Under the pieces are notes generated by a model. That model was not told the DNA's origin, did not search any database, and saw only the letters and a program-made list of their open reading frames with translations. A stretch of DNA of 64,000 nucleotides from Mesobacillus jeotgali (GTDB lineage: Bacteria; Bacillota; Bacilli; Bacillales; Cytobacillaceae). The first letter of the stretch is position 1, and the number at the start of each line of letters is the position of its first letter. The position numbers were made by a program, and so were the translations under genes. Of this stretch, positions 5,675-61,900 are shown piece after piece. The stretch is from the NCBI RefSeq assembly GCF_031759225.1, contig NZ_CP134494.1, positions 4,214,501 through 4,278,500 of the forward strand, read 5' to 3'.

Positions 5675-7090
5675 CTAGCTCCCTTTTCTATTGATCTTAG
5701 ACAAATTTATATAACCAATCGAAAACGCCAGGAGCATCCAATGATAGTTTAAGTTAGAAACCGAGCTAGGACTTATACTTGCGAAAGCAAAAGCGAACAG
5801 TGCGCCTAATAAGGCCTCACTGATCATCTTTGAAACAGGATTTTCCGCTTTTTTATAAAGGTGAAAGATCTTGATGATTATCGATAGATATAAAAGCATA
5901 TATCCAATAAAGATTATAACTCCATTGTTGACCAAGATTTCCAAATACCAATTATGCACATTCAATACATTTTGAGTAGGGTAAATAAAATAATTTTTCA
6001 TATAATACTCAACATTCCCACTGCCTACCCCAAAGCCAAAAGATTCACTTGTAAAGTAAAGTGCATTTTTAATTAGGTTAGTTCTAATACTTACTGAGTT
6101 ATCTGTTGTTTCTTCATTATTTAAAAATGCTGTAGCTGTATCCAATTGAGTGCTAATAAATAGCGTAACAACTCCAATCAATACCATACCTAATATGATT
6201 TTTATTTTAGGTTTTAAAATGACAAAAGTCATTCCAGCAACCGCCAGAAGAACAGCGAGCAGACTCGCCCTAGATTCAGTTACATACATTAGGTACAGAC
6301 TTAAAGCAAGGATAATGAAACCGAGTATTTTCATTAGGTAACTTTTAATATATCTAATAAATGCTATAAGGAAAAACGAACTGACCGCCAAATAACTGGC
6401 ATAATCATTTTGATTATAAAACACAGCAGTTGGAATATGCTTTTTATGTGGAGGCGCATTTAGTATAAAAGATGTGCTAAGATGCTGATGAGTAAGATTA
6501 TTCCACAACCCCACAACAACTAGCATGACTAACATGCCAATCCATAGATAAAAGAATTTTAGATAGTCGCCCTCCCTTTGAAAAAGAAGTACGACGAAAT
6601 AAACCATAAAAACTCCTATACCTAGCAGGAATAAATACCTAACCCCACTGTTAAACGATTTAACCCATGAGAGAGAAATTAAAGAATAAAAAAGCCAGGC
6701 AAGCAAGAAAAGAAGATATCCGTTTACAGAAATAGTTTGAGCATATACCTTCAATTCATTTCTCAAAAGCCTCACAAGAATCAATAAAAATAATATTAGA
6801 AATAGTAGTCTGTATGGAAATATAGAAATAGACCCAATTTTAACTGATAAGAATGCAGCTTGCAAAAATGATAGACCTATTGCAAGAAACAAAAATGATC
6901 GTTCCAAGTCGAAATTATAAACGGACCATTTTCTGAATACTAACAGTAAGAGAATATAACCTGAAGCGAAAGCGGTTAAAGTAATATAGGAATTAATAAG
7001 GTTGAACTTTAAAAAGACCACACTAATCAATGTTAGAAAAAGGATAGAAATTATTTGGTATGGAAGTTTATCATTGTCTAGTAATTTCAT
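5675..7090 (-). CDS. Wzy/TuaE-like polysaccharide polymerase
   Basis: A 471-residue, strongly hydrophobic protein with about 11-12 predicted membrane segments and a long extracytoplasmic loop in the C-terminal half. That loop holds the Wzy_C/O-antigen-ligase hallmark NVHNWYLEILVNNGVI near residue 380, preceded by GFGVGSGNVEYY. It probably polymerises lipid-linked repeat units outside the membrane, as TuaE is thought to do (about 490 residues in B. subtilis). It lies between glycosyltransferase genes of the same operon. Linkage specificity is unknown. Confidence 0.8.
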   Translation of the reverse strand: MKLLDNDKLPYQIISILFLTLISVVFLKFNLINSYITLTAFASGYILLLLVFRKWSVYNFDLERSFLFLAIGLSFLQAAFLSVKIGSISIFPYRLLFLILFLLILVRLLRNELKVYAQTISVNGYLLFLLAWLFYSLISLSWVKSFNSGVRYLFLLGIGVFMVYFVVLLFQREGDYLKFFYLWIGMLVMLVVVGLWNNLTHQHLSTSFILNAPPHKKHIPTAVFYNQNDYASYLAVSSFFLIAFIRYIKSYLMKILGFIILALSLYLMYVTESRASLLAVLLAVAGMTFVILKPKIKIILGMVLIGVVTLFISTQLDTATAFLNNEETTDNSVSIRTNLIKNALYFTSESFGFGVGSGNVEYYMKNYFIYPTQNVLNVHNWYLEILVNNGVIIFIGYMLLYLSIIIKIFHLYKKAENPVSKMISEALLGALFAFAFASISPSSVSNLNYHWMLLAFSIGYINLSKINRKGS

Positions 7091-8405: not shown

Positions 8406-9875
8406 TTAATCCAGCTGTTTTATTATCTGCTTAACAAGATCATAACCTTCTTCATGCTGACTGATTCCAGCTGGTCCAGTCTCATATCCACAAACATTAT
8501 CGATAAAGCTTATTAGCTCAGCCGCGTTTTCCATATAGACAGCTGCATTTTCTTCTATTTCCTCTTTGAAGAGTTCAGCGCCATTTTCATGTGTAACAAC
8601 GCTTTTTTTATTATACTCTTTCGCTTCTTTAACAGTCGAAGACCACTCCGTAACATGGACATCAATCTGTTTTAGCAGATAGGGTAATGGAAGTTCAGTT
8701 GAAAGATCAATCTCGTACTTAACATCAGCAGGGAGACTACCTAGTTTTTTCCTAATATTCGGTTCATCCTCTAGCATATTAGGATGCAGCCTGATGAGCC
8801 ATAACCAAGATGCTGATGAGTCTTTCATAGCTTCTAAAATTATAGAAGGAAACTCCCGTCCCGTTTGTAACGTTACAAGTATCACTTTATCTCTTTTATC
8901 CGGATTGATTTCAGGCAGACCTTGATTTAAGCGGTTTGCAAGTACATTGTCTTGTTTAGTCCATAAGTCAACCCACGGATTACCTCCAACAAAGGCCTTA
9001 TGGATATTCAACTTACTTGACCATTTTTCAATTGCATCTGCGCTATCTTGGTCCCAGCACCAAAAATATTGTGGCAATAGTGAGTAACCATCGGCAGGCA
9101 CCTTAGACCACCGACCATACGCCCTATGCATCGGGCCTTGCACCCCATGTTGAATTTCAATGGAAGGGAGAGCTATTTGTTTGCATGCCAAATTGAAGGC
9201 CATACCCTCCGGGCCATAGTAATATATTAACACACCTATAGCCGCATTATTTTTGATTAATTCCTTTTTAAAAAAGTCCGCCAGAATGATGATCAGGTTA
9301 GTATATTTCACATATGATTCCAACGGCTTAAGACGGATATTATATTTTCCTAAAAAAAGATTTACCTCATCAAATTTCTCTGCCAGGACCTGATTATTTT
9401 TAATCAGATTAATAAACTTAGCCTTAAAACGCAGGTATTCTAAGGATCCCTGGATATTTGTGCTATTGTGATAAGATGGTGACTTGAAATTATTATTAGG
9501 GGTGTACTCCAATATCCTTGAATGAATACCAAATTGATTAAGATTTTCGGCAATGGGATCAACCAAACGGTCATACCAAACCCCGGATACTTTAGTTTTC
9601 ATCATTGAATGCGTTAAAAAAACAACATTATCAGCATGACTGGATTTATTTCCAGTGAAATCTCTATTCCAGGATTGAAGGACCTTTTTCATTTGATTAA
9701 CGGTTGTTTCTTTTTTCTGTGGGGCTGCTGCAGATGAGGCCCCACTATTATGAAGCTTCATAGCCAAATCCAATCTTATTATCGGCCAAATAAGGACATT
9801 ATTGACACTCCATTCATCAACTGGGTATTGTCTCTCAATCTCATTAATAATATCCATATAAATTGAAGGTTTCAT
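8406..9875 (-). CDS. Capsule-type glycosyltransferase; candidate legionaminic (ulosonic) acid transferase
   Basis: A 489-residue soluble protein with no assignable TuaX counterpart. The C-terminal half shows the motif order of GT-B capsule transferases: IEIQHGVQGPMHR near 240, LIRLHPNML near 345 (HP motif) and VTEWSSTVKEA near 415 (SS/T motif). The HP and SS motifs are shared by bacterial sialyl- and Kdo-type transferases and also by CDP-glycerol transferases, so the donor class is not fixed by sequence alone. A predicted CMP-legionaminic acid pathway lies upstream on the same strand, so transfer of that sugar is a reasonable inference. The N-terminal 200 residues resemble nothing I recognise. 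Confidence 0.55.
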   Translation of the reverse strand: MKPSIYMDIINEIERQYPVDEWSVNNVLIWPIIRLDLAMKLHNSGASSAAAPQKKETTVNQMKKVLQSWNRDFTGNKSSHADNVVFLTHSMMKTKVSGVWYDRLVDPIAENLNQFGIHSRILEYTPNNNFKSPSYHNSTNIQGSLEYLRFKAKFINLIKNNQVLAEKFDEVNLFLGKYNIRLKPLESYVKYTNLIIILADFFKKELIKNNAAIGVLIYYYGPEGMAFNLACKQIALPSIEIQHGVQGPMHRAYGRWSKVPADGYSLLPQYFWCWDQDSADAIEKWSSKLNIHKAFVGGNPWVDLWTKQDNVLANRLNQGLPEINPDKRDKVILVTLQTGREFPSIILEAMKDSSASWLWLIRLHPNMLEDEPNIRKKLGSLPADVKYEIDLSTELPLPYLLKQIDVHVTEWSSTVKEAKEYNKKSVVTHENGAELFKEEIEENAAVYMENAAELISFIDNVCGYETGPAGISQHEEGYDLVKQIIKQLD

Positions 9876-9917: not shown

Positions 9918-11189
9918 TCACTTTTTAAGCCCCCAAGGCATCTTATAAACCCTTTGAGATAATAACCATGTCAAAACAAAGGAGATAAAAAATGCTAAAG
10001 CTGTTCCCTGAGCAGCCCCGATTGGGCCATTCATTTTAATAAACAGGTATGTGAAAACCACATTTAACATGGCTGTAAGGAAAGTAACCCATGCTAAGTA
10101 ACTTGTTTTTTCTGCGTAAAAAATATAATTAGTTACCATTTTATACATTCCATTAAATGCATAACCAATAGCAATCCAAAAAACATACTTGCCCGATTCG
10201 GTGAATTTATCTCCTACAAAGAAAGATAGAAACCACGGCGCAATTAAAGAAAACACTAGAGCCAGTAAAAGAATCCCAACAAAATAGATATAAGTGATCT
10301 TAACAATTCTTATCTTTTCATTATCATCGTCTTTTTTCAGCCTTTCATAAAGCCATGGAACCCATGCTTTATTAAAGGAATCCTGTATGATCCCTATTAT
10401 ATTCCCGAACTGATAACCGACGGCGTAAAGTCCAGTTTCCGCAATACCTACCATATTTGTTATAAAAAAGCGGTCTGTCATCGTAATCAGAAAGGATCCT
10501 AGAGAGTGAGGGATCAATGGCACGCCAAACTTTACCCCATGCATCATATACCGCTTGCTTAACCCCTTTGCAAGCCAGCCATTCTTCCATAGAACATAAA
10601 AAGCAATCAAGGCAAATATGACTGCGGTTATTACTTGTCCTTGAATCCTGCCCTGCCAATCAAATCCCATAAGGACAACAAACCATAAAGATAGCGAAAC
10701 ATTTAGGATTGTATTGGTAATTTGGAATATCCCAAAATATAAAGGCTTTACTTGAACTTGCCATTGGAGAAGAACAACTGCAATAATAAAATGGCAAAAT
10801 GAAACTAACAGCACAGCCCAGAGCCATTCTTTTGGAAAAGCACTGAGAGAAGATATCTGCGGAGCGAATAACACAAAGAATAACCCTACAATAAAAGTAC
10901 TTAGCAGCAATAAATAAAATGAGTTTGCAACATATTTAGGGAAATTTATTTTATCTCTTTCATAATATTGTCTGTTGATCGCCCCATTGATACTCAGGCC
11001 TGTAAATGGACCTATGATGCCTACCAGCACTTGAAACATGGTGACGATTCCATAATCCACCGGTGTCAGATATCTAGTTAATATGGGCATCATTAAAAAA
11101 GGGATTGCCGAATTAATGACTCTGGTACCCGTGTAAATGAAAGAAGCTTTTAAAAGGACGGATCCGGAAAGCTTTTTTAAAAGACTCAT
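9918..11189 (-). CDS. Polysaccharide flippase (Wzx/RfbX-like)
   Basis: A 423-residue integral membrane protein with about 12 predicted helices. It opens with a Wzx-like N-terminus (SFIYTGTRVINSAIPFLMMP, then YLTPVDYGIVTMFQV) and has charged residues inside helices, as in MOP-superfamily flippases. It should move lipid-linked oligosaccharide across the membrane. It is the first gene after the terminator-like hairpin at 11226-11254, so it may head a separately controlled part of the locus. Confidence 0.85.
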   Translation of the reverse strand: MSLLKKLSGSVLLKASFIYTGTRVINSAIPFLMMPILTRYLTPVDYGIVTMFQVLVGIIGPFTGLSINGAINRQYYERDKINFPKYVANSFYLLLLSTFIVGLFFVLFAPQISSLSAFPKEWLWAVLLVSFCHFIIAVVLLQWQVQVKPLYFGIFQITNTILNVSLSLWFVVLMGFDWQGRIQGQVITAVIFALIAFYVLWKNGWLAKGLSKRYMMHGVKFGVPLIPHSLGSFLITMTDRFFITNMVGIAETGLYAVGYQFGNIIGIIQDSFNKAWVPWLYERLKKDDDNEKIRIVKITYIYFVGILLLALVFSLIAPWFLSFFVGDKFTESGKYVFWIAIGYAFNGMYKMVTNYIFYAEKTSYLAWVTFLTAMLNVVFTYLFIKMNGPIGAAQGTALAFFISFVLTWLLSQRVYKMPWGLKK

Positions 11190-11225
11190 AAGTAATTCCT
11201 CTTATCTCTAAAGACTAAAAGACAA

Positions 11226-11254
11226 AAACTTAGGATTGCAAATATCCTAAGTTT
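11226..11254 (-). terminator. Terminator between the legionaminic acid genes and the flippase
   Basis: Perfect 11-base arms (11226-11236 and 11244-11254) with a 7-base loop are followed on the minus strand by TTTTTGTCTTTT. No plus-strand gene needs it. It lies 59 bases after the aminotransferase stop and 37 bases before the flippase start, so it would end or attenuate transcription of the leg genes. Confidence 0.75.
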
Positions 11255-11312
11255 CTCATGACAATAATACGACATTTATTGACAAAAATAAATATAATAC
11301 AATTGGAAAATG

Positions 11313-12464
11313 TTAATTTTTATGTTTTATTAATAGGTCACTCAAAGCCTCAATAACATAATCCTGCTCGGTTTTTGTCAGGCTTGAACCCGAAGGCAGA
11401 CATAGGCCACGCTCAAAAACATGCTTTGAAAAGTCGAAATCATCGTTTTCTTTGTAAAATGGTAAACCTTCAAATAACGGCTGCATATGAAGCGGCTTCC
11501 ATACCGGACGGGTTTCTATATTTTTTGTGTTTAATTTTTCTACAATTTGATGTGGAGTAATATTATAAAGTTGCGGATCAATGGTCAATACAGATAACCA
11601 TCTGGTTGAATAGTATCCTTCAGGCTCTTCCATAAAGTCAATTCCATCAAAGTGAGAAAGTTCAGCTTTGTAATATTCGAAAATTGCCCTTCTAGTTTTA
11701 ACTCTTTCATCCAAAGCTTCGAGCTGTGCTCTCCCTACCCCAGCTAATATATTACTCATGCGATAGTTAAATCCCATTTGGCTATGCTGGTAATGAAGCG
11801 CATTGTCACGAGCCTGGGTAGCAAGGAACCTTGCTTGTCCCAATCCTTCTAGATCATCTGATACAAGCATGCCTCCGCCAGAAGTAGTAATGATCTTATT
11901 ACCATTAAAAGAGAATATTCCATAATTACCAAATGTACCGCTGGATTGTCCTTTATACTTCGCTCCAAGTGATTCAGCCGCATCCTCTATTAAAGGAACA
12001 TCGTATTTCTGGCATAATTTCGATATTGGGTCCATATCAGCACTTTGTCCATATAAATTTACAACAATAACCGCTTTTGGCAATTTGCCTTCTTCTTCTG
12101 CTGCCAGCAAAGCTTTTTCCAGGGCAACAGGAGACATGTTCCACGTCCTTGGTTCAGAATCGATAAAAACTAAATCTGCTCCTTCATATAGGACCGGATT
12201 GGCACTTGCGATAAATGTAAGGCTGGAACAAAATACGCGATCTCCTTTAGTGATGCCAAGGAGTCTAAGCGCAAGATGAATAGCAGCTGTACCTGAACTT
12301 AGAGCTAGTGCACCCTTTGATCCTGTATATGCAATAATATCTTTTTCAAATGCATCTACGTTAGGTCCTAGTGGCGCAATCCAATTTGTTTCGAAAGCCT
12401 CATGGATATATAGTTGTTCTTTCCCACTCATATGTGGAGGTGACAGGAATATTCGTTTTTCCAT
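11313..12464 (-). CDS. EpsN/LegC-like PLP aminotransferase
   Basis: A 383-residue DegT/DnrJ/EryC1-family enzyme very like B. subtilis EpsN (IFLSPPHMSG, NWIAPLGPNV, ALSSGTAAIHLALRLL). The active-site lysine is in SFNGNKIITTSGGGML near residue 190, and the PLP-pocket segment is PLIEDAAESLGA near 160. It is predicted to convert UDP-4-keto-6-deoxy-GlcNAc into the 4-amino sugar, the second step to UDP-diacetylbacillosamine. It is the last of six pathway genes on this strand. A role in making only bacillosamine is possible, but the neighbouring 2-epimerase and synthase favour legionaminic acid. Confidence 0.8.
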   Translation of the reverse strand: MEKRIFLSPPHMSGKEQLYIHEAFETNWIAPLGPNVDAFEKDIIAYTGSKGALALSSGTAAIHLALRLLGITKGDRVFCSSLTFIASANPVLYEGADLVFIDSEPRTWNMSPVALEKALLAAEEEGKLPKAVIVVNLYGQSADMDPISKLCQKYDVPLIEDAAESLGAKYKGQSSGTFGNYGIFSFNGNKIITTSGGGMLVSDDLEGLGQARFLATQARDNALHYQHSQMGFNYRMSNILAGVGRAQLEALDERVKTRRAIFEYYKAELSHFDGIDFMEEPEGYYSTRWLSVLTIDPQLYNITPHQIVEKLNTKNIETRPVWKPLHMQPLFEGLPFYKENDDFDFSKHVFERGLCLPSGSSLTKTEQDYVIEALSDLLIKHKN

Positions 12465-12479
12465 TACATTCTACCTTCT

Positions 12480-13103
12480 TTAATTTAAAGTTTTTATAGG
12501 TCTTGCCGGATTCCCCACTGAGACAGTTTTTGCAGGTAAATTACGGATGACAACACTGCCTGCTCCAACAATGGAATTTCTGCCCACTTTTATCCCCTGG
12601 ATAGCGCAGGCAGCGATTCCAAAATGAACCAATTCAGATAATGCCACATTTCCAGCCAAGTTCGCGCCAGGCGATACATGTGAATAATTTCCGACTACAC
12701 AATCATGGTCAATTGTGGATCCGGTATTGATAATAACATGATTTCCAATTTCAGCTGAATGATTTATAACCGTATTAGCCATAACCACAGTCCCAGAACC
12801 GAGACTTACATTTGATCCTATTATGGCCGAAGGATGGATAGCCTGACCAAAATTAATGTTCAAGCTCTCCAAACCCTTCACAATCCGTTTTCTTGCATGG
12901 TTATCTCCAATGGTGACGATAAACTTAGGATTAACAAACTCTTGAATAATCTTGTCTATTTCATCTATTCTCCCTAAGACTGGATAAGAAGCGAAATTCC
13001 CCATGCGATTATCGTCCAAAAAACCAAATATTTTCTGGTGGGATGAAAGCAATATATCAAGGACAACTTTACTGTGTCCTCCAGCTCCAATTAGAATATA
13101 CAC
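12480..13103 (-). CDS. EpsM/PglD/NeuD-like sugar N-acetyltransferase
   Basis: A 207-residue protein with an N-terminal Rossmann-like lobe (LIGAGGHSKVVLDIL, GFLDDN) and a C-terminal left-handed beta-helix of hexapeptide repeats (residues about 90-200). The catalytic histidine pair is probably in INHSAEIG and STIDHDCVVG. The architecture is that of PglD/EpsM, which acetylate the 4-amino group of UDP-4-amino sugars; NeuD O-acetyltransferases look alike. With the aminotransferase next to it, N-acetylation to UDP-diacetylbacillosamine is the likelier step. The start is GTG. Confidence 0.75.
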   Translation of the reverse strand: MYILIGAGGHSKVVLDILLSSHQKIFGFLDDNRMGNFASYPVLGRIDEIDKIIQEFVNPKFIVTIGDNHARKRIVKGLESLNINFGQAIHPSAIIGSNVSLGSGTVVMANTVINHSAEIGNHVIINTGSTIDHDCVVGNYSHVSPGANLAGNVALSELVHFGIAACAIQGIKVGRNSIVGAGSVVIRNLPAKTVSVGNPARPIKTLN

Positions 13104-13116
13104 CTTCCATCACCCC

Positions 13117-14265
13117 TTAATAGGAGATAATTTTTTCTAAAAGCTTCTGGTTCAACTCTAAATCAGCTAGAACCTTAATAATCCGTTCACTCGTTCTGCC
13201 ATCTCCATATATGTTCTCAACGCCATTCAAGGATGATTTGAAGCTTTCAGATGTAATTTCTTTAAAAGCTTTGACAATCTGCTCTTTATCAGCTGATACA
13301 TTTATTACATTAGCGGATTGTTCACGTCCTCGCTGGCGATCTCCTATGTTCATGACCGGAATTTGAAAAGAAGCCGCTTCAATAATTCCCGAGGAGGAAT
13401 TTCCAACTAAAGAGTTTGCATTCTTTAAAACAGATAGATAATCCAGAGGACTAAAATTATCTATGAACACGAATCTTGGATCTCTGGAATATTTTTTATA
13501 AGCATTTGTGATTTCCTGATTTCCTGCGTCGGAGTTCGGCATTATAACGATGAATTTCTCATTTAATTCCTTCAATGCTTCCATACATTCTTCTATCTGC
13601 GATTGAACACCGGTAAGTTCAGTTGATACAGGGTGAAAAACAAACATTGAATAGGACTTTTGTTCAAATGGGATTTCATATTTGGCAAAGACCTGATCGA
13701 TTGTCGGCAATTCTACACTCTTGATTGTGTCAATCCTCGGTGCACCCACCTGAAAAACTCTCCAGCTATCTTCTCCCATACGCTTGATCCGTTCAGCGCT
13801 GTTTAAGGTTGACGGAAAATGAATATGAGATAGCTTGGTTATAGCATGACGAACAGATTCATCGATAGAGCCAGAAACTTCTCCACCATGGATATGCGCT
13901 ACAACAATATTCAAGTGTGAAGCAGCTATAGAAGCAGCCAGCATTTCCCCTCTATCGCCCAATACTAAGACGATATCAGGTTTTAAGTCTTCAAATGCCT
14001 GTGTCATGCCCATTATTCCGATTCCTATAGACCTTGCCATAGCTCCTTCATTATCATTTTGCAAAAGGATATCTACTTTAGCGGAAATGGGAAACTGGTC
14101 TTTTTCGATTTCTTTTATAGTTTCTCCATAAAAAGGAGACAAGTGCATTCCTGTGGCAAGCAATTGCAGCTCCAATGCCGGGTGGGTCACAATCTTATTT
14201 AGTATTGGCAGATATATGCCATAGTCAGCTCTTGTTCCGGTAACTACACATACTTTTCTTTTCAT
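13117..14265 (-). CDS. legG: Hydrolysing UDP-sugar 2-epimerase (LegG/NeuC-like)
   Basis: A 382-residue NeuC-family GT-B-fold enzyme (VVTGTRADYGIYLPIL at the N-terminus, VLVLGDRGEM near 110, HIHGGEVSGSIDESVRHA near 145, VGNSSSGIIEAASF near 295). In the legionaminic pathway it removes UDP from diacetylbacillosamine and inverts C2, giving 2,4-diacetamido-2,4,6-trideoxymannose. NeuC would use UDP-GlcNAc instead; the dehydratase, aminotransferase and acetyltransferase nearby favour the LegG reaction. It overlaps the synthase gene by ATGA. Confidence 0.8.
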   Translation of the reverse strand: MKRKVCVVTGTRADYGIYLPILNKIVTHPALELQLLATGMHLSPFYGETIKEIEKDQFPISAKVDILLQNDNEGAMARSIGIGIMGMTQAFEDLKPDIVLVLGDRGEMLAASIAASHLNIVVAHIHGGEVSGSIDESVRHAITKLSHIHFPSTLNSAERIKRMGEDSWRVFQVGAPRIDTIKSVELPTIDQVFAKYEIPFEQKSYSMFVFHPVSTELTGVQSQIEECMEALKELNEKFIVIMPNSDAGNQEITNAYKKYSRDPRFVFIDNFSPLDYLSVLKNANSLVGNSSSGIIEAASFQIPVMNIGDRQRGREQSANVINVSADKEQIVKAFKEITSESFKSSLNGVENIYGDGRTSERIIKVLADLELNQKLLEKIISY

Positions 14266-15296
14266 ATCAAATCTTCCCAGGTCAGTGTTTGATCGGCCGA
14301 TAGATTTCTATTTATTTTCTTTCCGATTAACAGTGGCAGATATTTAGGCTCGATTCCCGTGCCTGGCCTCTTAGTCACAATATCGTTTTCGGAAATTACG
14401 TCCCCTTCAACCAAATCTTTAGCAGCTACTAAACTTTTCCGCGCAACTTCCTTTGTATTGATTTCAGACGGCATACACCTTTTAATACCGTCGCCCATGG
14501 AGGCTTCAATATTCCTGATTCCGTCCACCAATTCTTTTAACTCTTGCGGAATGATGGATGCTTTGTGATCTGGACCAGGGAGGTCGCGATCCAGGGTGAA
14601 ATGCTTTTCGACGACCTTGGCACCAAGTGCTACTGCGGCAAAAGAAATTGTGTTTCCTTCAGTATGGTCAGAATATCCCACAATTCTGCCGAACGCATTT
14701 TGAATAGTCCTTATTGCATTTAGATTCACTTCATGATAAGGAGCGGGATAATTCGAAGTGCAATGCAGGATACAAACCTCATTTTCTTTCAAAACATCAA
14801 GTGCATCCTCGATTTCACCCAGGTTTGCCATTCCGGTAGACAAAAGAATCGGGACATTATATTGGCTAAGCTTTTTAAGGAAAGGCAGATTCGTTAAATC
14901 TCCCGAACCGATTTTATATGCATGCACACCAATTTCATTTAAAAATGCCGCACTTTCGTCATCAAAAGGTGTGGAAAGAAATTCAATGCCTTTTCCATCG
15001 CAGTATTCTTTCAACTCTCGGAAATCCTCAAAACGAAGCTCGAGCTTTTTCAGCATTTCCAACTGAGACTCTTGGCTTTGTGTGTTTTCAACCTGGTATT
15101 CTGCTTTAACAGCATTTTTCGACACCAGTTTCTCGCTTTTAAAGGTCTGGAACTTAACAGCATCGGCTCCCGAATCTGCGGCAACATCAATTAGCTTTTT
15201 GGCCATTTGAACGTCACCATTATGGTTAACCCCTACTTCAGCAATAATATAGGTAGGAGAAGATGCGTTGATGATTTTGCTGCCTATCTTAAACAT
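14262..15296 (-). CDS. legI: Legionaminic acid synthase (LegI/NeuB-like)
   Basis: A 344-residue member of the NeuB family: an N-terminal TIM-barrel domain (IIAEVGVNHNGDVQMAKKLI, AVKFQTFKSEKLVS, VGYSDHTEG near 205, VEKHFTLDRDLPGPDHKAS near 235) and a C-terminal SAF/antifreeze-like domain (about 285-344). These enzymes condense phosphoenolpyruvate with a 6-carbon amino sugar to give a 9-carbon ulosonic acid. The substrate (legionaminic rather than neuraminic or pseudaminic precursor) is inferred from the adjacent genes. It lies one base after legF and overlaps legG by 4 bases. Confidence 0.85.
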   Translation of the reverse strand: MFKIGSKIINASSPTYIIAEVGVNHNGDVQMAKKLIDVAADSGADAVKFQTFKSEKLVSKNAVKAEYQVENTQSQESQLEMLKKLELRFEDFRELKEYCDGKGIEFLSTPFDDESAAFLNEIGVHAYKIGSGDLTNLPFLKKLSQYNVPILLSTGMANLGEIEDALDVLKENEVCILHCTSNYPAPYHEVNLNAIRTIQNAFGRIVGYSDHTEGNTISFAAVALGAKVVEKHFTLDRDLPGPDHKASIIPQELKELVDGIRNIEASMGDGIKRCMPSEINTKEVARKSLVAAKDLVEGDVISENDIVTKRPGTGIEPKYLPLLIGKKINRNLSADQTLTWEDLI

Positions 15297-15297
15297 A

Positions 15298-15990
15298 TTA
15301 CATCCTCATTTCTTTCATCAGCAATTCAGCTAGTAAAAAATCAAATCGATCGTCAATATCTACAGAATACTGTTTTTCCATCTGATAGGGATAGACCTCG
15401 TCTCCGTAAATACGATTTTCATCCATGATTTTTTCCCTGGTTGTTATATATATAGCACCGTTCAGCTCGTATACTTTGGTTAAGTCCTGTCTGCGGGTTA
15501 CAGTATCTGAAGTTTCAAGAAAATTGACCAATTGGTTATTGTCAATTTTCTTCACCATGTTTGGATGTGTTTTTGCCTCTGTTACACTGACAACCGGTTT
15601 ACGCCCATTATTTAGAAATATCTTAAAGGCCTCATCGATATGCAGATGATTACGCAAAGGTGATGTTGGCTGCAACAAGACGATATTGTCGATTTTTACA
15701 CGTGAATGCTCTTCAAGCTTTTCAATTGTAAATTTAAGAACATCCAAGGTAGGAGTATCATCAGCGGCCAATTCAAAAGGTCTCATGAAAGGGACCTCTG
15801 CCCCTGCCTCCTTTGAAACTCTTGCAATTTCTTCATCTTCTGTTGAAACCATTACCATGTCAATGTTCCTGCTATTAACTCCACTTTTTATTGAATAAGC
15901 AATAAGAGGAATGTTCAACAAAGGCAGGATATTTTTCCTTTTTAACCCTTTGGACCCCCCTCTTGCCGGTATGATGGCAACTGTCTTCAC
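15298..15990 (-). CDS. legF: CMP-legionaminic acid cytidylyltransferase (LegF/NeuA-like)
   Basis: A 230-residue CMP-sugar synthetase with the nucleotide-binding N-terminus IIPARGGSKGLKRKNI, the QPTSPLR motif near 105 and a C-terminal YSVDIDDRFDFLLAE metal-site segment. It activates the ulosonic acid with CTP, making the donor for transferases. The GTG start has AGGAGAGGTG just upstream. It is 16 bases after legB and one base before legI. Confidence 0.85.
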   Translation of the reverse strand: MKTVAIIPARGGSKGLKRKNILPLLNIPLIAYSIKSGVNSRNIDMVMVSTEDEEIARVSKEAGAEVPFMRPFELAADDTPTLDVLKFTIEKLEEHSRVKIDNIVLLQPTSPLRNHLHIDEAFKIFLNNGRKPVVSVTEAKTHPNMVKKIDNNQLVNFLETSDTVTRRQDLTKVYELNGAIYITTREKIMDENRIYGDEVYPYQMEKQYSVDIDDRFDFLLAELLMKEMRM

Positions 15991-16006
15991 CTTTCACCTC
16001 TCCTTT

Positions 16007-17008
16007 CTAAAATAAAAGGCTCTCCCTGTCCAAAAGCTCACGAATTTCAGTTTTCGTCAGGACTGGTGCATTATGAGATGAATAGGCTTTGGGTTCGCTT
16101 TTTCTAAAACCTTGAGGCGGTTCGTAGTTTTTCGCAAAGTTAGAGTAAATGGCATACATCTTTTCATTTTCAAATGCTCTTTCCGACTCTTCTGCAGTCA
16201 TAAGTTCTTCGTATATCTTTTCACCAGGACGGATTCCCACTTCAACAATCTCACTGCTAGAGGTTCCATACTTTTCTTGATAATCATCCATCAGGACCTC
16301 TGCCAAATCTTTAATATACAAAACAGGCATTTTCAATACATATGTTTCTCCTCCGCTTGAAAGCTCTCCAGCACTCACAACGAGTTTGGCAGCCTGCGGA
16401 ATCGACATCATAAATCTTGTCATTTCCCTGTGGGTGAGTGTAATTGGCTTACCGTTCATAATCTGGTCTTTGAAAAGGGGGATGACGGAGCCTCTAGAAC
16501 CCATCACATTGCCAAAACGAACACAAGAGAAAACTGTTCTCGCATTTCCTTTATAATAACCTGCGGCAGAAATAAGTTTCTCTGATAGCAGTTTAGTTGC
16601 ACCCATCGTATTCATGGGATTAACAACTTTATCTGTACTGATGGAAACCATTTTTTCCACATTATTATTGATCGCTACTTCTATCACATTCTGGGTCCCT
16701 AATACATTTGTTTTTACCGCTTCAAATGGATTATATTCACAGGAAGGGACATGCTTTAATGCAGCAGCATGAAAAATAACATCAACTCCCTGAGCAGCAT
16801 ATTCAAGCCGCTCTTTATCCCGGATGTCACCAATCAAATAGCGGATTTGGGAATACTCATTAAGTTCCTGTTCCATATTAAATTGCTTAGATTCATCCCT
16901 GCTGAATATACGAATAGCCTTTGGATTATAACTTAGCAGCTGGCGGACTATTTCGCTTCCGATAGACCCGGTACCGCCAGTGACCATAATCGTTTTATCT
17001 TTGAACAT
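16007..17008 (-). CDS. legB: UDP-GlcNAc 4,6-dehydratase (LegB-like)
   Basis: A 333-residue short-chain dehydrogenase with the NAD site MVTGGTGSIGSEI at residues 8-20, FSRDESKQF near 36, and the dehydratase motif VSISTDKVVNPMNTMGATK near 120-140, in which the usual Tyr of YxxxK is Met. It lacks the N-terminal membrane part of EpsC/FlaA1-type enzymes. Predicted reaction: UDP-GlcNAc to the 4-keto-6-deoxy sugar, the first step of the pathway completed by the five genes that follow. PseB-type 5-inversion (pseudaminic route) is the main alternative, but no PseG- or PseH-like gene is present. A sigma-D-like promoter ends about 38 bases upstream. Confidence 0.8.
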   Translation of the reverse strand: MFKDKTIMVTGGTGSIGSEIVRQLLSYNPKAIRIFSRDESKQFNMEQELNEYSQIRYLIGDIRDKERLEYAAQGVDVIFHAAALKHVPSCEYNPFEAVKTNVLGTQNVIEVAINNNVEKMVSISTDKVVNPMNTMGATKLLSEKLISAAGYYKGNARTVFSCVRFGNVMGSRGSVIPLFKDQIMNGKPITLTHREMTRFMMSIPQAAKLVVSAGELSSGGETYVLKMPVLYIKDLAEVLMDDYQEKYGTSSSEIVEVGIRPGEKIYEELMTAEESERAFENEKMYAIYSNFAKNYEPPQGFRKSEPKAYSSHNAPVLTKTEIRELLDRESLLF

Positions 17009-17046
17009 TACATCACCTGATTCATTTTATTTTTTCACATTTATTC

Positions 17047-17074
17047 TTATCGGCAGATTCAAAGTTAAGCTTTA
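17047..17074 (-). promoter_or_regulatory. Sigma-D-like promoter for the legionaminic acid genes
   Basis: On the minus strand TAAA (17071-17074) is followed after 16 bases by GCCGATAA (17047-17054), 11 of 12 consensus bases for sigma-D with a spacer one base over the optimum. It lies in the 78-base gap between gtaB and legB, giving a short leader to the legB ATG at 17008. Confidence 0.6.
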
Positions 17075-17086
17075 GAAGAATTTGTT

Positions 17087-17962
17087 TTATAAGCTTTCTG
17101 CTAATTCCTTAATAAATTGTTTTACGTCATCTTTTAAATCCTCACGCTTCAGGCTAAAATCCACTGTGGCTTTGATAAAACCTAGTTTATCACCAACATC
17201 ATAACGTATTCCGTCAAATGAATAGGCAAGGACACCTTCTTGTGTATTTAAGATTTCCAATGCGTCTGTCAATTGAATTTCATTGCCTTTGCCCGGAGGC
17301 AGGGTTTCCAATATATCAAATACAGCAGGGGATAAAACATATCTTCCCATAACGGCAAGATTGGAAGGAGCTTCACTGGTTTTAGGCTTTTCCACAAGTG
17401 ATTCAACTTCAATGATCTTTGAAGGGCCGGCAGTATTTTCAGGAGCCACAATTCCATATTTATCTGTATCTTCCCACTTGACTTCTTGAACCCCAATGAT
17501 GGTTTTTTCATATTCCTCATAAGCATCCAATAACTGCTTTAAACAGGGTGTTTGCGATTCAACTATGTCATCACCCAGCAGGACAGCAAAAGGTTCATTG
17601 CCAATAAACCTTCGAGCAGAGTAAATCGCATGCCCAAGCCCCTTCGGTTCCTTTTGGCGGACATAATGGATATTAACAAGGTTAGAGATGCCCTGAACCA
17701 TTTCAAGTAGATCAAATTTTTCCTTTTGAGCCAATGTTTCTTCAAGCTCATATGATTTGTCAAAGTGATCTTCAATTGCCCTTTTTCCTCTCCCGGTCAC
17801 GACCATTATATCTTCAATACCTGAATGGACTGCTTCCTCGACAATATATTGGATTGTGGGCTTGTCAACAATAGGCAGCATCTCTTTTGGCTGAGCCTTT
17901 GTGGCAGGAAGGAATCTTGTACCCAGTCCTGCTGCCGGGATAATCGCTTTTTTCACTTTCAT
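17087..17962 (-). CDS. gtaB: UTP-glucose-1-phosphate uridylyltransferase (copy 1)
   Basis: About 291 residues, the normal GtaB length. It shows [19 protein letters not shown] (nucleotide and metal site), [23 protein letters not shown] near 130 and VEKP near 190. It makes UDP-glucose, precursor of UDP-galactose and UDP-glucuronate. A TTG at 17977 overlapping the upstream stop would add five residues; the ATG at 17962 with GAGGTG at 7 bases is preferred. A close paralogue lies at 40170-41063. Confidence 0.9.
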
Positions 17963-17973
17963 CTCATCGCACC

Positions 17974-18732
17974 TCAATCTCTATTTTTCATATAACCGTT
18001 CCATGCGTAATTCACAAAATACCATAAAGCAGGCAATAAGCTTAACTTCTCATGCTTTCTGTAAATAATCCAATTTTGCTTTGCTGCTTTCACTTTATTC
18101 CTCGAAATGGATCCTGCTGTTTTACGGTATCTGGCCAAGACTTCATTCAACCCATATGCTATGTGTCCCTTTTTTAAAATAGATAACCATAAAGCGAAAT
18201 CCTGTCTTGTCCTATATAAAGGCATTTGAACTTCGCCAACTTTTTCTCTATCTAATACAACGGTAAGACACCCAATAATCGTGTTCTTCAACAGATATTG
18301 ATAGTTGACTTTCTCAGGAACCTGTACAACCTTCTCGGTTGATTTTCCCAAATCATCCATCACTTCATAACCCGTAAAGGAAAATCCCACGTCTTTCTCA
18401 AGCATAAATGAAATTTGCCGGGTTAGTTTATCGGGCACCCATTGATCATCAGCGTCCAAAAACGCAATAAACCTTCCAGACGAATTATTTATCGCCGTAT
18501 TCCTCGTTACAGCTGCCCCACTATTTTCTGTTAGCTTTATTAATTTAACCCTTGGATCCTGTTTAGCATATTGTTCAACAATTTCAACCGTACGATCCCG
18601 GGAACAATCATCGCAAATAATCATTTCCCAATTTGTATACGATTGATTTAACACTGTCTTAATTGTTTCCTCAATATAATTTTCTGCATTATAACTTGGT
18701 GTAATAATTGATACTAAAGGTTGCTCATTCAT
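17974..18732 (-). CDS. tuaG: TuaG-like family 2 glycosyltransferase
   Basis: About 252 residues of GT-A fold: [20 protein letters not shown] at the N-terminus, [18 protein letters not shown] near 35, the metal-binding AFLDADDQW near 85, and a C-terminal segment with [12 protein letters not shown]. Length and pattern match TuaG. A start at 18780 would add a 16-residue non-conserved tail, so the ATG at 18732 is preferred. It is the first gene of the minus-strand polymer operon, with promoter-like sequence upstream. Confidence 0.75.
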
Positions 18733-19143
18733 ATTTTCACCTGAATCTCCTGTGTTTGTGGCTCTAATTAATAACATCAAATATTATATCAAACTAACCA
18801 TTGATATAAAAACATTATACGACAAAGCTCGAGCAGCAATAAATTTCATAATAAAACAACTTCAACATCTGGTACAAAAAGACCACTAAATGTAATTTTA
18901 CTCTTTAGACACTGTAATACAATGAATATCTTCTTACTATCTCTTTAAATTAATATTGCAATTTTTCAGTTTGCCGATGTGGTTGTAACACCCATAGTAT
19001 AACTGCTCCATTCTATTTACAACCCGCTTCCTCTCCTGCTCTTTAAATAGTTCACACTTCAAACAAAAATAAACATTTTTTTACTTATTTATTTTTGATA
19101 TGATAGAGAGCAGAATGTTTTTGAAGAATTTGGGGGTAACAAA
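18733..19143. other. Divergent intergenic region between the polymer operon and the LCP gene
   Basis: There is no credible coding frame. It contains two perfect TATAAT boxes on the minus strand (18783-18788 and 18814-18819) for the polymer operon. For the LCP gene on the plus strand there is an AT-rich stretch with TATGAT near 19098 and a GGGGG ribosome site just before its ATG. Confidence 0.6.
18814..18842 (-). promoter_or_regulatory. Candidate sigma-A promoter of the polymer operon
   Basis: A perfect minus-strand TATAAT (18814-18819) has a weak -35 candidate TTATTG 17 bases upstream (18837-18842). The position, about 80 bases before the TuaG-like start, is suitable, but the -35 match is poor. 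Confidence 0.4.
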
Positions 19144-27352: not shown

Positions 27353-27517
27353 TCGTTTCTAACACCTCTAATTATGTTTAATTAGTAACATTTCTTTTTC
27401 CATAAAGAGGAAAACATCAACCTGTAAAATATTTCATATCCATGTCGATATTTCATATATAGTAGTTGATTCCATTACTATCAAGCCAAAAATTTCACAA
27501 CGAGAGTGGTGTTCATA

Positions 27518-28429
27518 ATGAATGGTTATTCGATGGCAGAATCCTTATTAGTTATGCAAAGTGAAGCGTTAAAATTCAACTTTGCTTTGCTGCATGATTC
27601 AAATATCATGAAGATGCTCCTTCCATTCGCAAAAGAAAAAATAAGTGGAAGCAGCAAGTCTGAGATTATGGAAATGGTAAAGAAGGAGGCAGATAAATAT
27701 CGCTATACTCCTGTTAACCATGTTAGGCGTAATCTCATTCTTGAGCTTTCAAATATCTACGGGATTCCTGACCGAAGACTAAAAACCAGACAGGATGCTG
27801 CAGAGCAATGCGATAGAATTATCCAAGCAATGTATTCGCAAATGGTGCAAAACAATAAAAAATTCGCAGTTTTTTTGCATGCCCATACAGAAAAAACCAA
27901 ATTAGAAAAAATCATTACATTTCAAATGTATAGCCTAATTGATTCTATTAGCGGAAAGCAAATGACAGCTGCGCAAATGAAACAAGTTGGCGATTCTTTA
28001 GAGGATTTTTTAACGGACCTTCCCGAACAACAACAGAAACAGGTTGCAGACAAACTTGGTATCAATCATATAACCAGTCAAACAATGCAACAGTTAATTG
28101 CAACAAACGGGACAGCAGCCGTTTTTGCCGTTATTGTCCAAGTAGCGGGATTTGCTTTTTACACTACCTTAACCTCTGTAGTGGCAGGAATATTCGGCCT
28201 GGTAGGAATAACTCTCCCCTTTGCCGTGTATGTAACTTTAACTTCTGCCGTTGCCGTTTTGACCAACCCACTGTTCATTATACCTGTACTTCTGATTGGA
28301 GGTGGAGGCTTACTCAATTGGCAGAACGTAAAAATGAAAAAAGCAATTGCTCCTGTTGTATTAATGCAAATCATGGTTATGGGAGACCAACATGCCGAGG
28401 CTAAATGGGAAGCATTTTTGGATGAATAA
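27518..28429 (+). CDS. Unrecognised membrane protein, YaaW-like in layout, first gene of a two-gene module
   Basis: About 303 residues. The first ~195 are soluble, charged and largely helical (for example SGSSKSEIMEMVKKEADKYR near 45, and PEQQQKQVADKLGINHIT near 180). Residues about 205-275 are almost entirely hydrophobic with three membrane-spanning stretches, ending in a GGGGLL turn and a short amphipathic tail. The layout recalls the UPF0174/YaaW proteins, but I cannot confirm homology by eye. The ATG at 27518 is chosen over a GTG at 27506. It overlaps the next gene, so the two products are made together. Confidence 0.6.
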   Translation: MNGYSMAESLLVMQSEALKFNFALLHDSNIMKMLLPFAKEKISGSSKSEIMEMVKKEADKYRYTPVNHVRRNLILELSNIYGIPDRRLKTRQDAAEQCDRIIQAMYSQMVQNNKKFAVFLHAHTEKTKLEKIITFQMYSLIDSISGKQMTAAQMKQVGDSLEDFLTDLPEQQQKQVADKLGINHITSQTMQQLIATNGTAAVFAVIVQVAGFAFYTTLTSVVAGIFGLVGITLPFAVYVTLTSAVAVLTNPLFIIPVLLIGGGGLLNWQNVKMKKAIAPVVLMQIMVMGDQHAEAKWEAFLDE

Positions 28430-29699
28430 ATCTCAATGGGAACTATTCGTTCATTTTTGGGAGAATGGGAAATATGAGGAAGCTGTAGAGGTACAACTGG
28501 AAAGTGAGCCACGGGGTGGCTTAAATGTTGTTGACAAGCTGTTTCGATCACAAGGAATAAACTCTTCTGCAACTATCGCAGGTTTCTCCTTTATGGATAT
28601 TCTATATGATTATTTCATGATTAACCCAGCTGTAATGGACGCTATTGATTTTGCAAGAAGTGAGGATTTAGCCAGTTTTTTTACTTTCCAGCAATTTGCG
28701 GCAGGTTTTGATTTTGACAACGCCGGGGAGTTAACTAGATTAAAAGGTTATACAGCAGAACAATTAGTAGCTTTAGAGTTACAAGGGAAAGGGCATGACG
28801 TCAGCTTCCCTGAAGCTTCTAACCAAGCTGGTTTTGATTTAATCGTTGATGGACAACCATTTCAAGTTAAATGTCTTGGCACACCAGGAGGGGTCTATGA
28901 ACATTTTCGGGCTTACCCTGATTTACCTGTATTAGTAAATCGCGAATTGATTCCATCACTTGCTGATCACCCTCTGGTTTATGGGACAGATGTTTCCAAC
29001 CAAACTGTAGAAGTAATTACACGATCGACTCTTAAACATGCAGCAGAATTTACGGAACTTGATATCCCAATGATTACTCTGGGAATTTCTAGCCTTACTA
29101 ATGGTTATAAGGTAATCAGAGGTGGAATCAGTACACGAATAGCCGGTCTAAATATTGCAAATGAAACTGCTGCCAGAGGCGCTGGTGCTCTGGCAGGAAA
29201 AGGTATCGGTTTAGTTTTAGGTCCTCTATTTGGCCCTGCAGGTACAGTAGTTTTGCCCATGATGCTTGGTATGGCAGGAGGCTATAGCGGCAAAAAGCTG
29301 ACAAAATACATTAAGCAGCTTTATACACAAAAGGAACGTGATTTGGTATTTAATCACTTAGGAATTCTGATTGGCAAAGTACTACAAGCATTTCCTAAAA
29401 AAGAAACAATTAAAGAATCCAAATTCCAAGAAGCTAATACTCTTATAAAAAAACACCCTACATTGCGATTCTTAACGGGGGCATTCACAGAGAAACATAA
29501 AGAAAAACTGGCCTATTTAATTAATAAAAAGCAGGAGTTAAACAACTATCAGGAAAAAGTCAAACAACAAGCCATAGACTTAGAATCAGATGTACCCCAT
29601 ATTCTCGATACCATTCTTAAAAGCCAGGTTCACCCTTCTCTTTTCCAGAAGGAATTAACAACATTCGGAGAAAGCTATAATAATTTAAAAAAGATATAA
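28392..29699 (+). CDS. PD-(D/E)XK-nuclease-like protein with membrane segment, second gene of the module
   Basis: A 435-residue protein. Residues about 118-165 hold a restriction-endonuclease-like core: GYTAEQLVALEL with Glu, then AGFDLIVDGQPFQVKCLG, giving D149 and Q158-V-K160, the D-(D/E/Q)xK catalytic pattern. Residues about 260-300 are glycine-rich and hydrophobic (KGIGLVLGPLFGPAGTVVLP), suggesting a membrane hairpin. The last 130 residues are charged and helical. The start at 28392 has GGGAGA at good distance; an ATG at 28422 overlapping the previous stop is equally possible. I know no described system with this pair. Confidence 0.65.
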   Translation: MPRLNGKHFWMNKSQWELFVHFWENGKYEEAVEVQLESEPRGGLNVVDKLFRSQGINSSATIAGFSFMDILYDYFMINPAVMDAIDFARSEDLASFFTFQQFAAGFDFDNAGELTRLKGYTAEQLVALELQGKGHDVSFPEASNQAGFDLIVDGQPFQVKCLGTPGGVYEHFRAYPDLPVLVNRELIPSLADHPLVYGTDVSNQTVEVITRSTLKHAAEFTELDIPMITLGISSLTNGYKVIRGGISTRIAGLNIANETAARGAGALAGKGIGLVLGPLFGPAGTVVLPMMLGMAGGYSGKKLTKYIKQLYTQKERDLVFNHLGILIGKVLQAFPKKETIKESKFQEANTLIKKHPTLRFLTGAFTEKHKEKLAYLINKKQELNNYQEKVKQQAIDLESDVPHILDTILKSQVHPSLFQKELTTFGESYNNLKKI

Positions 29700-58944: not shown

Positions 58945-61900
58945 TTACTCCTCAATATCAAAGGAATAGACATTCCCTAACGAGTCTTTATACTCTAAAA
59001 CATAATATTTTGCTTCATTTTGAGGCTTAATATATTTTACATAATTGGTTCCAGGTTTTAATTCAAATTCTTTTCGGTCAAGCAACTCACCCATATATAT
59101 TGAATCATATACCTTTATAGATAGTTTAATTGAATCTGATACGGCGATTTGAAGGTTTAGCTGTTTATTAATACTGGAATTCTCACTATCGGGAATAAAT
59201 GAGTATTCTTGTGACTGCAGCCATGGCGGATTCTCCCGATTTGTCATTTTCCCCTGTACCACCCTCTCATTTCCATTAGAATGCCTGCCCCTAATCGTAT
59301 AAAAGTATACATCTCCATACTCATACCAGCCATTGACATCGAATCCATCCCATTTAAATGTGTTTATTCCTTGCAGAGCCGATGAATTAGTGGAAATCGT
59401 TCTTATCTTCTGTTTAGAAGAATTCAAAACCTCTATTGTTACCATTGCTGGCTTGGACAAGTGATAATACACCTCACTCGCGACTTCTTCCCAGGCAAAC
59501 AATTGAACAATGGATGGGGCAACGATTTCAACATACTCATAGGCGACTGCAATGTTGCCAACGTACTGGCTTGTTTGTTTATATTTATCAGTAAAAGTGA
59601 TTTTGAATTGATATTGCCCGTCGGCTAAATAGGTTCCGGATTGGTTTTTCCCATCATAGATAAAAGAATGGGACCCTTTGTGTTTATAAGAACCTGACTG
59701 AACTGTTCGGAGAATTTTTCCGTCTTTTACTATCTGGATGGTGACATATCCTTGTTTGCTTATGTTATAGGATACGGACAAATTTGTTTTGGACTGGTAA
59801 CGAATATTCAGCGAAGACTTTACTATTGGCTTTAGCCAGTCCTGAAGAGTAAAGACGCTACTCTTCATAATTGACTTGTTTCCTGTAGCATCTCTGTACT
59901 CGACATAGAACTTAAATTTCCCTTCAGCTGCGAATTGCCCTTTGTCATTTTTCCCATCCCAATATAAAGAAGAAATTCCCCGCTGGTAAATTTGTTCAGA
60001 CTTGATTTCTCTGACCCTCACTCCATTATCTGTTGTGATATAGGCACTTACATAGGCAGATTCTTTAAGGTCGATTTTAGCGAGGGGTTTTGTTTTGCCA
60101 TCCATCTTTAATAGTGAAGAGCTAAGACTCATTTTCCCAGCAGGCTTAATGGAGTCCACCTTAACGGACACTTTTCTGGTTGCCCCTTTCCCTTTCCTTG
60201 AGTCAACCACTGACATCACAAGGGTATAGGATCCATCACGAACCTTCTTGCCTTTATTATCCTTTCCTTCCCATATAATCATTTTCCTTCCAGATGATAA
60301 GGATTTATTGTACATAAACCTTTTAATTTCCTTTTTATTTCGATCATAAAGAATCGCTGTCACCTTCGAGCCCATGTTTAGTTCATAAGGAAGCCTTAGT
60401 TTTCCATTGGCCGCAGGTGAAAATTGAGAAGAAGATGTTACTTTGATAGATGGAGTAGCCTTGTTAATTGTTTTAACATTAGCAGCTTTGTAAATAGTCT
60501 TTTTTCCGTTTGTAACCTTTGCCACTACTTTATATATTCCATTTGGAACAAATGCTCCATTTTCCTGTTTGCCATCCCAAACCGCCGTTACTTTTCCGCC
60601 CTTCCATTTTTTATTGGTAACAAGCTTCCTAAGAAGCGTTCCTTTGGAATTTTGGATATAGAGCGAAACAGATGTCCCACCTTGAGCATAAACGGAAATT
60701 GTATTTTTATTAAGACCAGTCATTGTGAACTCAGGCATTGACAACTTAAGACTATAGACAGGATTTGGTGTGCTGCTCAATGCTTTATAAGCATCCACCC
60801 TCCCATTTCCGTATAGATAGTCCCACCCTTGATTTCCGAGATCTGCGGATGACTTTTTTAAGATATTTTCAACCTGTGCAGGTGTCAAAAATGGATTCTT
60901 AGATAAAACTAATGCTGCTACACCAGATACAACAGGTGCCGCCATTGATGTACCGCTCATATTTCTATAGGAACTACCTGCTACTGTTGAGTAAATATCC
61001 ACCCCAGGAGCTGAGAAATCTATATACGAACCATAATTGGAAAACTGAGTGATCTGGTCACTGGCATCTGTAGCACTCACGCCAAGTACGGATTGCAATG
61101 CTGCCGGGTAGGTATCAGTGGATGAATCATCATTTCCAGCAGCCGCTATCACCGTAACACCTTTGGTATATGCGTAATGAATTGCATAATCCAGGGCGTA
61201 ACTGTAATTAATACTTCCAAGACTTAAATTGATAATGTCCGCTTTATGGTCAACTGCATAATAAATTCCATCAACAACATTAAAAATATCGGCAGCATCC
61301 CCGTTGAACACACTAACAGGCATTATTTTTACGTTTGGCGCGATGCCTGCAATGCCAGTCTTATTAATCGTAGCTGCAATAATTCCGGCTACATGCGTTC
61401 CATGGTCGTCCGGTAGGATAGATGTGCTTCCTCTCACAACATCATATGGATAAATGATTTTTCCTTTCAAATCAGGATGACTTGTCTGTACTCCTCCGTC
61501 AACAACTGCTACCGTTACAAGCGATGAGCCCTTGCTAACATCCCATGCTTTTGGCATTTGTATTTTTTTTAAATACCATTGTTTGCTGTAATTTGGATCA
61601 GAAGGAGTGAACTTAGAATCAATCTGGTAATTTGGTTCAACATATTCAACTTTTTTGTATTTTAAGAGCTTTTCAGCCACAAAAGTTAGTTCAGCTTTAC
61701 CAGGTACTTCAACTAAGGTGAAGTCTCCTCTTTTAAGATGGGAGATCCCTTTCATTTTAAGGGCCTCCAGGAGAAGTTCTTTTTCTTCGGATGTGGCTTC
61801 GGACTTGAATTTAATAATTAACTCATTGCTTTCAAAGTCTTTATTTTCATCAAATAAGACTTCGGTATTATACTTTGAGATTTTGGGTTTTATTTCTTCT

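Follow-up and report, generated by a model that had tools for sequence, protein, structure and literature searches.

What does a complete set of nonulosonic acid genes do inside a wall-polymer locus, when a sigma-D-type box stands directly before its first gene? We addressed this question in Mesobacillus jeotgali, for a window of 64,000 nucleotides (bases 4214501–4278500 of a 4.63 Mb single-contig genome, here G000; positions are those of the window unless a locus is named). Six genes, legB, legF, legI, legG, neuD and legC, follow each other on its minus strand without large gaps (11313–17008). The reading we favour, as moderately probable, is that this operon is one supply of cytidine monophosphate-legionaminic acid (CMP-Leg) for the flagellin-modifying Maf protein and probably also for the wall polymer, and that this supply is boosted by sigma-D.

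The first gene is legB-like (16007–17008) and encodes a UDP-N-acetylglucosamine (UDP-GlcNAc) 4,6-dehydratase of the short CapD/PseB type, with a TDK...M-x3-K active site. It is followed by a legF-like CMP-nonulosonic acid synthetase gene (15298–15990; CTP_transf_3 domain), legI for a NeuB-type synthase with a SAF domain (14262–15296), legG for a NeuC-type hydrolysing 2-epimerase (13117–14265), neuD for an N-acetyltransferase of the NeuD/PglD type in the LegH role (12480–13103), and legC for an aminotransferase dependent on pyridoxal phosphate (11313–12464), all on the minus strand. The expected Pfam domains were present in all six proteins. LegI (TIGR03569, 483 bits, cut-off 400), LegG (TIGR03568, 469 bits, cut-off 236) and NeuD (TIGR03570, 223 bits, cut-off 161) passed the NCBIfam cut-offs. 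LegC (TIGR04181, 377 bits, cut-off 420), LegB (PseB profile, 356 bits, cut-off 408) and LegF (PseF profile, 173 bits, cut-off 206) matched the expected families below theirs; LegB and LegF were assigned by family and context. The closest solved relatives of LegG were hydrolysing GDP/UDP-diacetylbacillosamine 2-epimerases, and a LegG of the NeuC type argues for legionaminic acid (Leg) over pseudaminic acid (Pse) as the product. At the family level, the unit holds a dehydratase, an aminotransferase, an acetyltransferase, a hydrolysing 2-epimerase, a NeuB-type synthase and a CMP transferase, the complete set from UDP-GlcNAc to CMP-Leg, as a sequence-only reading of this DNA had claimed. Judging from these families, the six enzymes would make CMP-Leg, or a close stereoisomer, by C4/C6 dehydration (LegB), amination (LegC), acetylation (NeuD), hydrolysing 2-epimerisation (LegG), condensation with phosphoenolpyruvate (LegI) and CMP activation (LegF).

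The sigma-D-type box before legB, already pointed out in that reading, is TAAA-N16-GCCGATAA (17047–17074, minus strand; TAAA at 17074–17071, GCCGATAA at 17054–17047). It is perfect (12/12), lies 38 nt ahead of the legB ATG and predicts a transcript start near 17040. At this promoter distance it fits the consensus TAAA-N13..16-GCCGATAW quoted in the available text of PMC3865298; the corresponding text of PMC5200910 quotes a spacing of N15. Bare motif counts were dropped as evidence for a promoter, for they showed no genome-wide excess: TAAA-N14..17-GCCGATAA had 8 matches versus 5 for a reversed control, and a looser form 72 versus 72. The legB box is significant because of the position of such boxes before genes, not because of the frequency of the bare pattern. 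TAAA-N14..16-GCCGATAW was found at 13 sites in the genome, eight ending in A and five in T. Seven of these end 35–76 nt ahead of a same-strand gene start, namely of flgM, cheV (CheW and receiver domains), a chemoreceptor gene (MCP signalling domain), a gene for an MHYT-GGDEF-EAL protein, a divIC-like gene, legB, and an S8 protease gene at 61968. Five of the other six lie within open frames, and one is 167 nt ahead of a pilM/ftsA-like gene. The number expected within 100 nt ahead of 4,700 starts (an estimated gene number) was ~0.27 under a first-order model derived from 82 upstream regions, versus the seven observed, and it is unlikely that the legB box arose by chance.

A control in relatives gave a similar picture. 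In 23 of their loci, a box scoring 11/12 or better, its TAAA intact and no more than 150 nt away, was found before 19 of the 86 genes with flagellar-locus homology, a count in which some true flagellar boxes were missed through the mechanical picking of open frames (at least 150 aa). None stood before the 225 others. As maf, hag or NeuB genes had guided the choice of loci, these others are no random sample but mostly sugar genes, surface genes and their neighbours.

Some of the boxes concern other genes. The perfect 12/12 box of the S8 protease gene (N15; 62030–62004, minus strand) is 35 nt before the gene (58945–61968), which encodes a secreted protein with FlgD-type Ig domains. The one belonging to the divIC-like septum gene (G000:C1:73607–73633, locus L001) stands 76 nt ahead of it. 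Before the MHYT-GGDEF-EAL gene, at 41 nt, the perfect box has N14 and GCCGATAT (L244:1522–1547, plus strand); here a link of sigma-D to the turnover of cyclic di-GMP (c-di-GMP) is possible. An 11/12 box (27425–27451, plus strand) lies ~54 nt before a pair of overlapping genes that match no Pfam family (27506–28429 and 28392–29699). Such boxes are in this genome not confined to known motility genes.

A candidate user of the sugar is found in the flagellar locus. A single maf gene (PF01973, 115 bits) was found in the genome, after hag and a gene for a 173 aa protein, 40 kb from the operon. A B. subtilis control genome gave no match to PF01973. The interval from hag to fliD comprises the 173 aa gene, maf, the gene of a VWA/TIG surface protein (p886, on the opposite strand) and flaG, and no sugar-synthesis genes were found in it. 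The genome has no full NeuB-type gene besides the window legI, which scores 334 bits versus 34 bits for the second profile match. Weak matches of that kind occurred in all 16 genomes searched, and we take the 34-bit one to be a relative of the 3-deoxy-D-arabino-heptulosonate 7-phosphate synthase type.

Maf and NeuB also go together across relatives. In a set of 61 genomes (this one and 60 relatives), PF01973 was matched at E ≤ 0.001 in 17, above the family cut-off in 15 and with >100 bits in 13. Each of these 13 strong-Maf genomes, this one included, had a NeuB-family match, versus 4 of the 48 others (Fisher p = 3.6e-10, or 3.2e-8 with two weak Maf genomes kept; the genomes are related and the p values optimistic). 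The two weaker cases, G017 and G022 (46–66 bits, open frames of 264–301 aa), had no NeuB-family match. In 8 of the 13, a single contig carried NeuB and Maf no more than ~13 kb apart. This co-occurrence speaks against a reading in which the sugar goes exclusively into the wall or capsular polymer encoded around the operon, with a coincidental box and an orphan Maf that is inactive or uses another sugar. The excess of boxes at promoter position speaks against it too, as do the closest relatives of the Maf, which are Leg-associated; we consider a purely wall-directed operon unlikely.

Two related genomes, G099 and G089, have a Leg cluster in the same flagellar locus. The gene order there is hag-orf173-maf-p886-legB-legC-legG-legI-neuD-PtmE-like-legF, with flaG-fliD a little further on, and the identity to this genome is 83–84% for Hag, 56–58% for Maf and 70–72% for p886. 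Our genome has the same hag-orf173-maf-p886-flaG block without the Leg cluster, and a search for cluster remnants between flaG and p886 gave no significant match. In a maximum-likelihood tree of 25 Maf rows, labelled Leg or Pse from gene content, the Maf of this genome groups with those of G049, G099 and G089 at 100/100. All three adjoin or lie near Leg clusters, which is suggestive, not decisive, for the sugar of this Maf. In G049 a hag box is followed, on a single strand, by hag-orf-maf and then by the leg genes, whose control by sigma-D through co-transcription is likely. The clusters adjoining this Maf clade are of a GDP type, with a LegB of the TIGR04180 type (tested for G099, where LegB and LegC both score above the curated cut-offs for their families) and a PtmE-like nucleotidyltransferase inside the cluster. 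The window operon differs from them in its short CapD/PseB-type LegB, and no PtmE-like gene lies inside it. It would take the place of the different, GDP-type cluster that G099 and G089 carry between maf and flaG.

The service to motile cells that the sequence-only reading had suggested is thereby better supported than from the box alone, chiefly through the orphan Maf near hag and the boxes before flgM, cheV and the chemoreceptor gene. The sole full NeuB-type gene, the Leg cluster in the G099/G089 block and the Maf clade point the same way.

Two further observations concern the flagellar locus. The 173 aa gene between hag and maf (L032:9513–10034, minus strand) has no Pfam family; relatives of it occupy the corresponding position in the three other genomes of this Maf clade (G099, G089 and G049), and the protein is possibly a Maf partner or chaperone. 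Between flaG and p886, ~30 kb outside the window, lies a c-di-GMP-I riboswitch (Rfam RF01051, 70.9 bits; L032:4533–4616, plus strand). It precedes the gene of the VWA/TIG-domain surface protein, which suggests c-di-GMP control of an adhesin adjoining maf and hag.

In the favoured reading, the sigma-D promoter before legB would drive the operon when cells make flagella, and basal transcription would probably come by read-through from the upstream wall-polymer genes. The Maf encoded near hag would use CMP-Leg in the cytoplasm and attach Leg to flagellin before export, a step proposed from the Maf ancestry, from synteny and from the Aeromonas caviae model. Part of the CMP-Leg pool would probably also feed the neighbouring wall polymer of the Wzx/TuaE type.

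Several observations weigh against this reading. The first concerns the product. The TDK-xn-M-x3-K signature is listed, in the available text of PMC8987622, for the retaining dehydratase PglF. The same active-site methionine occurs in CapE/FnlA-type dehydratases, one of which is named as a 5-epimerase. Since these 5-epimerising types share it, we rejected the methionine of LegB as proof of C5 retention, and for the same reason legionaminic acid is the likely rather than the proven product.

The second concerns the box. The boxes of flgM, hag and flaG in this genome have a spacer of N15, not N16 as before legB; this doubt is answered by the cheV and chemoreceptor boxes, which have N16. Conservation of the box, which the sequence-only reading had proposed to check in related genomes, did not emerge. 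None of the 94 relatives' genes best matching the six enzymes had a box of at least 11/12 within 150 nt, most of these genes lying inside operons, where no box is expected. The first genes of the related sugar operons scanned did not have it either. In G099 and G089, where an adhesin gene parts legB from hag and maf, not even a 9/12 box was found in the 300 nt before legB. The operon was found at this locus in no other species, and no congener searched with LegI showed it.

The third concerns related sugar operons elsewhere, which sit in polysaccharide settings, as a purely wall-directed role would have it. In Gracilibacillus kekensis (L136), an operon of the same gene order and 50–70% identity comes directly after a Wzx-type gene and one further gene, and no box was found before it. 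The Maf of this species is of another kind (25% identical to the one studied here) and has no sugar genes alongside. We rejected G. kekensis as another clear example of such an operon feeding an orphan Maf, on account of this low identity and of a second NeuB-type gene (297 bits). In G036 (L120), a related operon adjoins glycosyltransferase-type genes, and the genome has no Maf. The congener G014 encodes two Mafs. Its one full NeuB-type gene belongs to a Pse cluster ~70 kb away, outside the flagellar locus and without a box. This cluster is adjoined by a 62% identical relative of the window nucleotidyltransferase encoded directly upstream of legB (17087–17977, minus strand). The location of the cluster and its lack of a box suggest that Maf proteins of this genus may commonly draw their sugar from genes outside the flagellar locus, and that the box is this genome's own.

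The fourth concerns transcription from upstream. The nucleotidyltransferase gene belongs to a unit running towards legB, with a family 2 glycosyltransferase gene as the first (17974–18780, minus strand) and an extended -10 promoter-like site at its head (18810–18783). The terminator scan found no site between the nucleotidyltransferase stop (17087) and legB. Because of this gap and of the promoter-like site, read-through from the wall-polymer genes into the leg operon is likely. The two scans as a whole showed no excess (27 promoter-like sites versus a shuffle mean of 24.2, and two terminator-like sites versus 6.4). At the other end of the operon, a terminator-like hairpin follows legC (11224–11256, minus strand), with 13 pairs, three of them G-C, and a T-run (-14.3 kcal/mol, z = -4.1, 0 of 200 shuffles as stable), in line with the intrinsic terminator reported by the sequence-only reading. 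Its description of the operon as self-contained holds for the box and the 3' hairpin and fails at the 5' border, where transcription may enter. No Rfam RNA was found before legB, and the legB leader fold was no more stable than shuffles.

These observations leave room for an account in which the operon feeds the flagellin Maf and is expressed from an upstream wall-locus promoter, the box being unused. Besides the lack of a terminator-like site and the extended -10 site, which comes from the scan without overall excess, G014 speaks for this account, as it appears to work in this way without a box. It accords poorly with a 12/12 box that lies 38 nt from the start codon and has the N16 of the cheV and chemoreceptor boxes, and with the lack of even an 11/12 box before the 225 non-flagellar genes of the relatives' loci. 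We regard it as improbable.

The fifth concerns Maf and the wall. With Leg- and Pse-associated rows mixed in other parts of the Maf tree, Maf ancestry is in general no predictor of the sugar. A wall role of the operon remains likely, and its location within a Tua-like wall-polymer locus, as first described, holds. The operon is adjoined by several glycosyltransferase genes, a gene for a Wzx-type flippase (9918–11189, minus strand) and one for a TuaE-like polymerase (5675–7090, minus strand; 327 bits, below the cut-off of 400). This neighbourhood favours the purely wall-directed reading, as does the commonness of the bare box pattern. A perfect box even lies inside a nearby glycosyltransferase gene (3208–3181, minus strand), presumably by chance, and serves as a warning on the bare motif. 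The 13 of 13 strong-Maf genomes with NeuB and the seven boxes at promoter position remain on the side of the shared, sigma-D-boosted supply.

The wall locus also encodes a 489 aa protein without family (8406–9875, minus strand), with IQHG, RLHP and SS motifs. We take these motifs to recall GT-B sialyltransferase-like enzymes; that the protein is a GT-B transferase and a candidate user of CMP-Leg in the polymer is a weak, speculative proposal. Its sole homologue among 193 family genomes has a NeuB-family gene on either side, in the G116 flagellar island, a placement that would fit a flagellin-glycan role as well as a wall-polymer role. One more, distant homologue (22–23%), in a 397-genome sample of the order, adjoins Wzx. 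One homologue gave only sub-threshold matches to capsule-type transferases. No solved relative was found by sequence or by a three-row profile, and a single-sequence structure model was useless (predicted local distance difference test score of 34).

The sugar could also go to the spore surface. In B. subtilis, the sps genes provide Leg at a late stage of sporulation, and it is attached to the crust, according to the available text of PMC7439481, and the closest solved relative of LegI is SpsE. The B. subtilis pathway thus offers CMP-Leg in a Bacillus, but with sps enzymes, late in sporulation and for the spore crust. The box before legB points to sigma-D rather than to a factor of late sporulation (no search for sporulation-factor promoters was made), and an orphan Maf is present. 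A spore destination is very improbable.

For the origin of the shared supply we offer a tentative scenario, somewhat short of an even chance. The flagellar Leg cluster would have been lost, and a Leg operon of other biochemical type in the wall locus would have gained a sigma-D promoter and taken over the orphan Maf. One CMP-Leg pool would then decorate wall polymer and flagellin and be raised in motile cells. The data fit a loss of the flagellar cluster here and a gain in the relatives alike. If the scenario is true, the wall polymer would also vary with the motility state, cell wall and flagellum would have a sugar supply in common, and flagellin glycosylation would have been relocated and rewired through a different Leg gene set and the gain of a promoter.

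Known systems show parts of this arrangement. In the Maf-dependent flagellin glycosylation islands of Campylobacter, Geobacillus and Clostridium, CMP-nonulosonic acid genes and Maf lie by the flagellin gene; those of Geobacillus are placed between the flagellin gene and flaG (PMC5109656, available text). Here, unlike in these islands, the sugar genes are 40 kb off, in a wall-polymer locus, and have a sigma-D-type promoter of their own. Some Clostridium species have such genes outside the usual flagellar region, yet near Maf or flagellin genes, as far as the accessible part of PMC13317340 goes. In the A. caviae model, CMP-Pse is common to the O-antigen of the lipopolysaccharide (via Lst) and to flagellin (via Maf) (PMC4065374), and pathway mutants lose motility and an O-antigen band (PMC3658858). 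It resembles the case proposed here in having one activated sugar pool and two users. It differs in the sugar, Pse, and in being Gram-negative, and the accessible parts of these papers mention no sigma-28-type promoter on the sugar genes.

The nearest regulatory parallel is C. difficile, also Gram-positive, where SigD positively controls the flagellin glycosylation genes CD0241-CD0244 (PMC3865298, available text). The C. difficile glycan is another one, N-acetylglucosamine with phosphorylated N-methyl-threonine (PMC4441256, accessible part), and in the text at hand its genes are listed among flagellar ones. In the available text of PMC10083409, nonulosonic acid/flagellin glycosylation and sigma-D/sigma-28 are mentioned apart. 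A literature search, with subscription papers mostly outside it, gave no description of sigma-D or sigma-28 control of a nonulosonic acid pathway, which agrees with the earlier remark that such regulation in Bacillaceae is undescribed.

A further RNA element lies elsewhere in the window. An epsC element (RF01735, 99.8 bits; 41334–41216, minus strand) was found upstream of a minus-strand gene run that starts at 41063.

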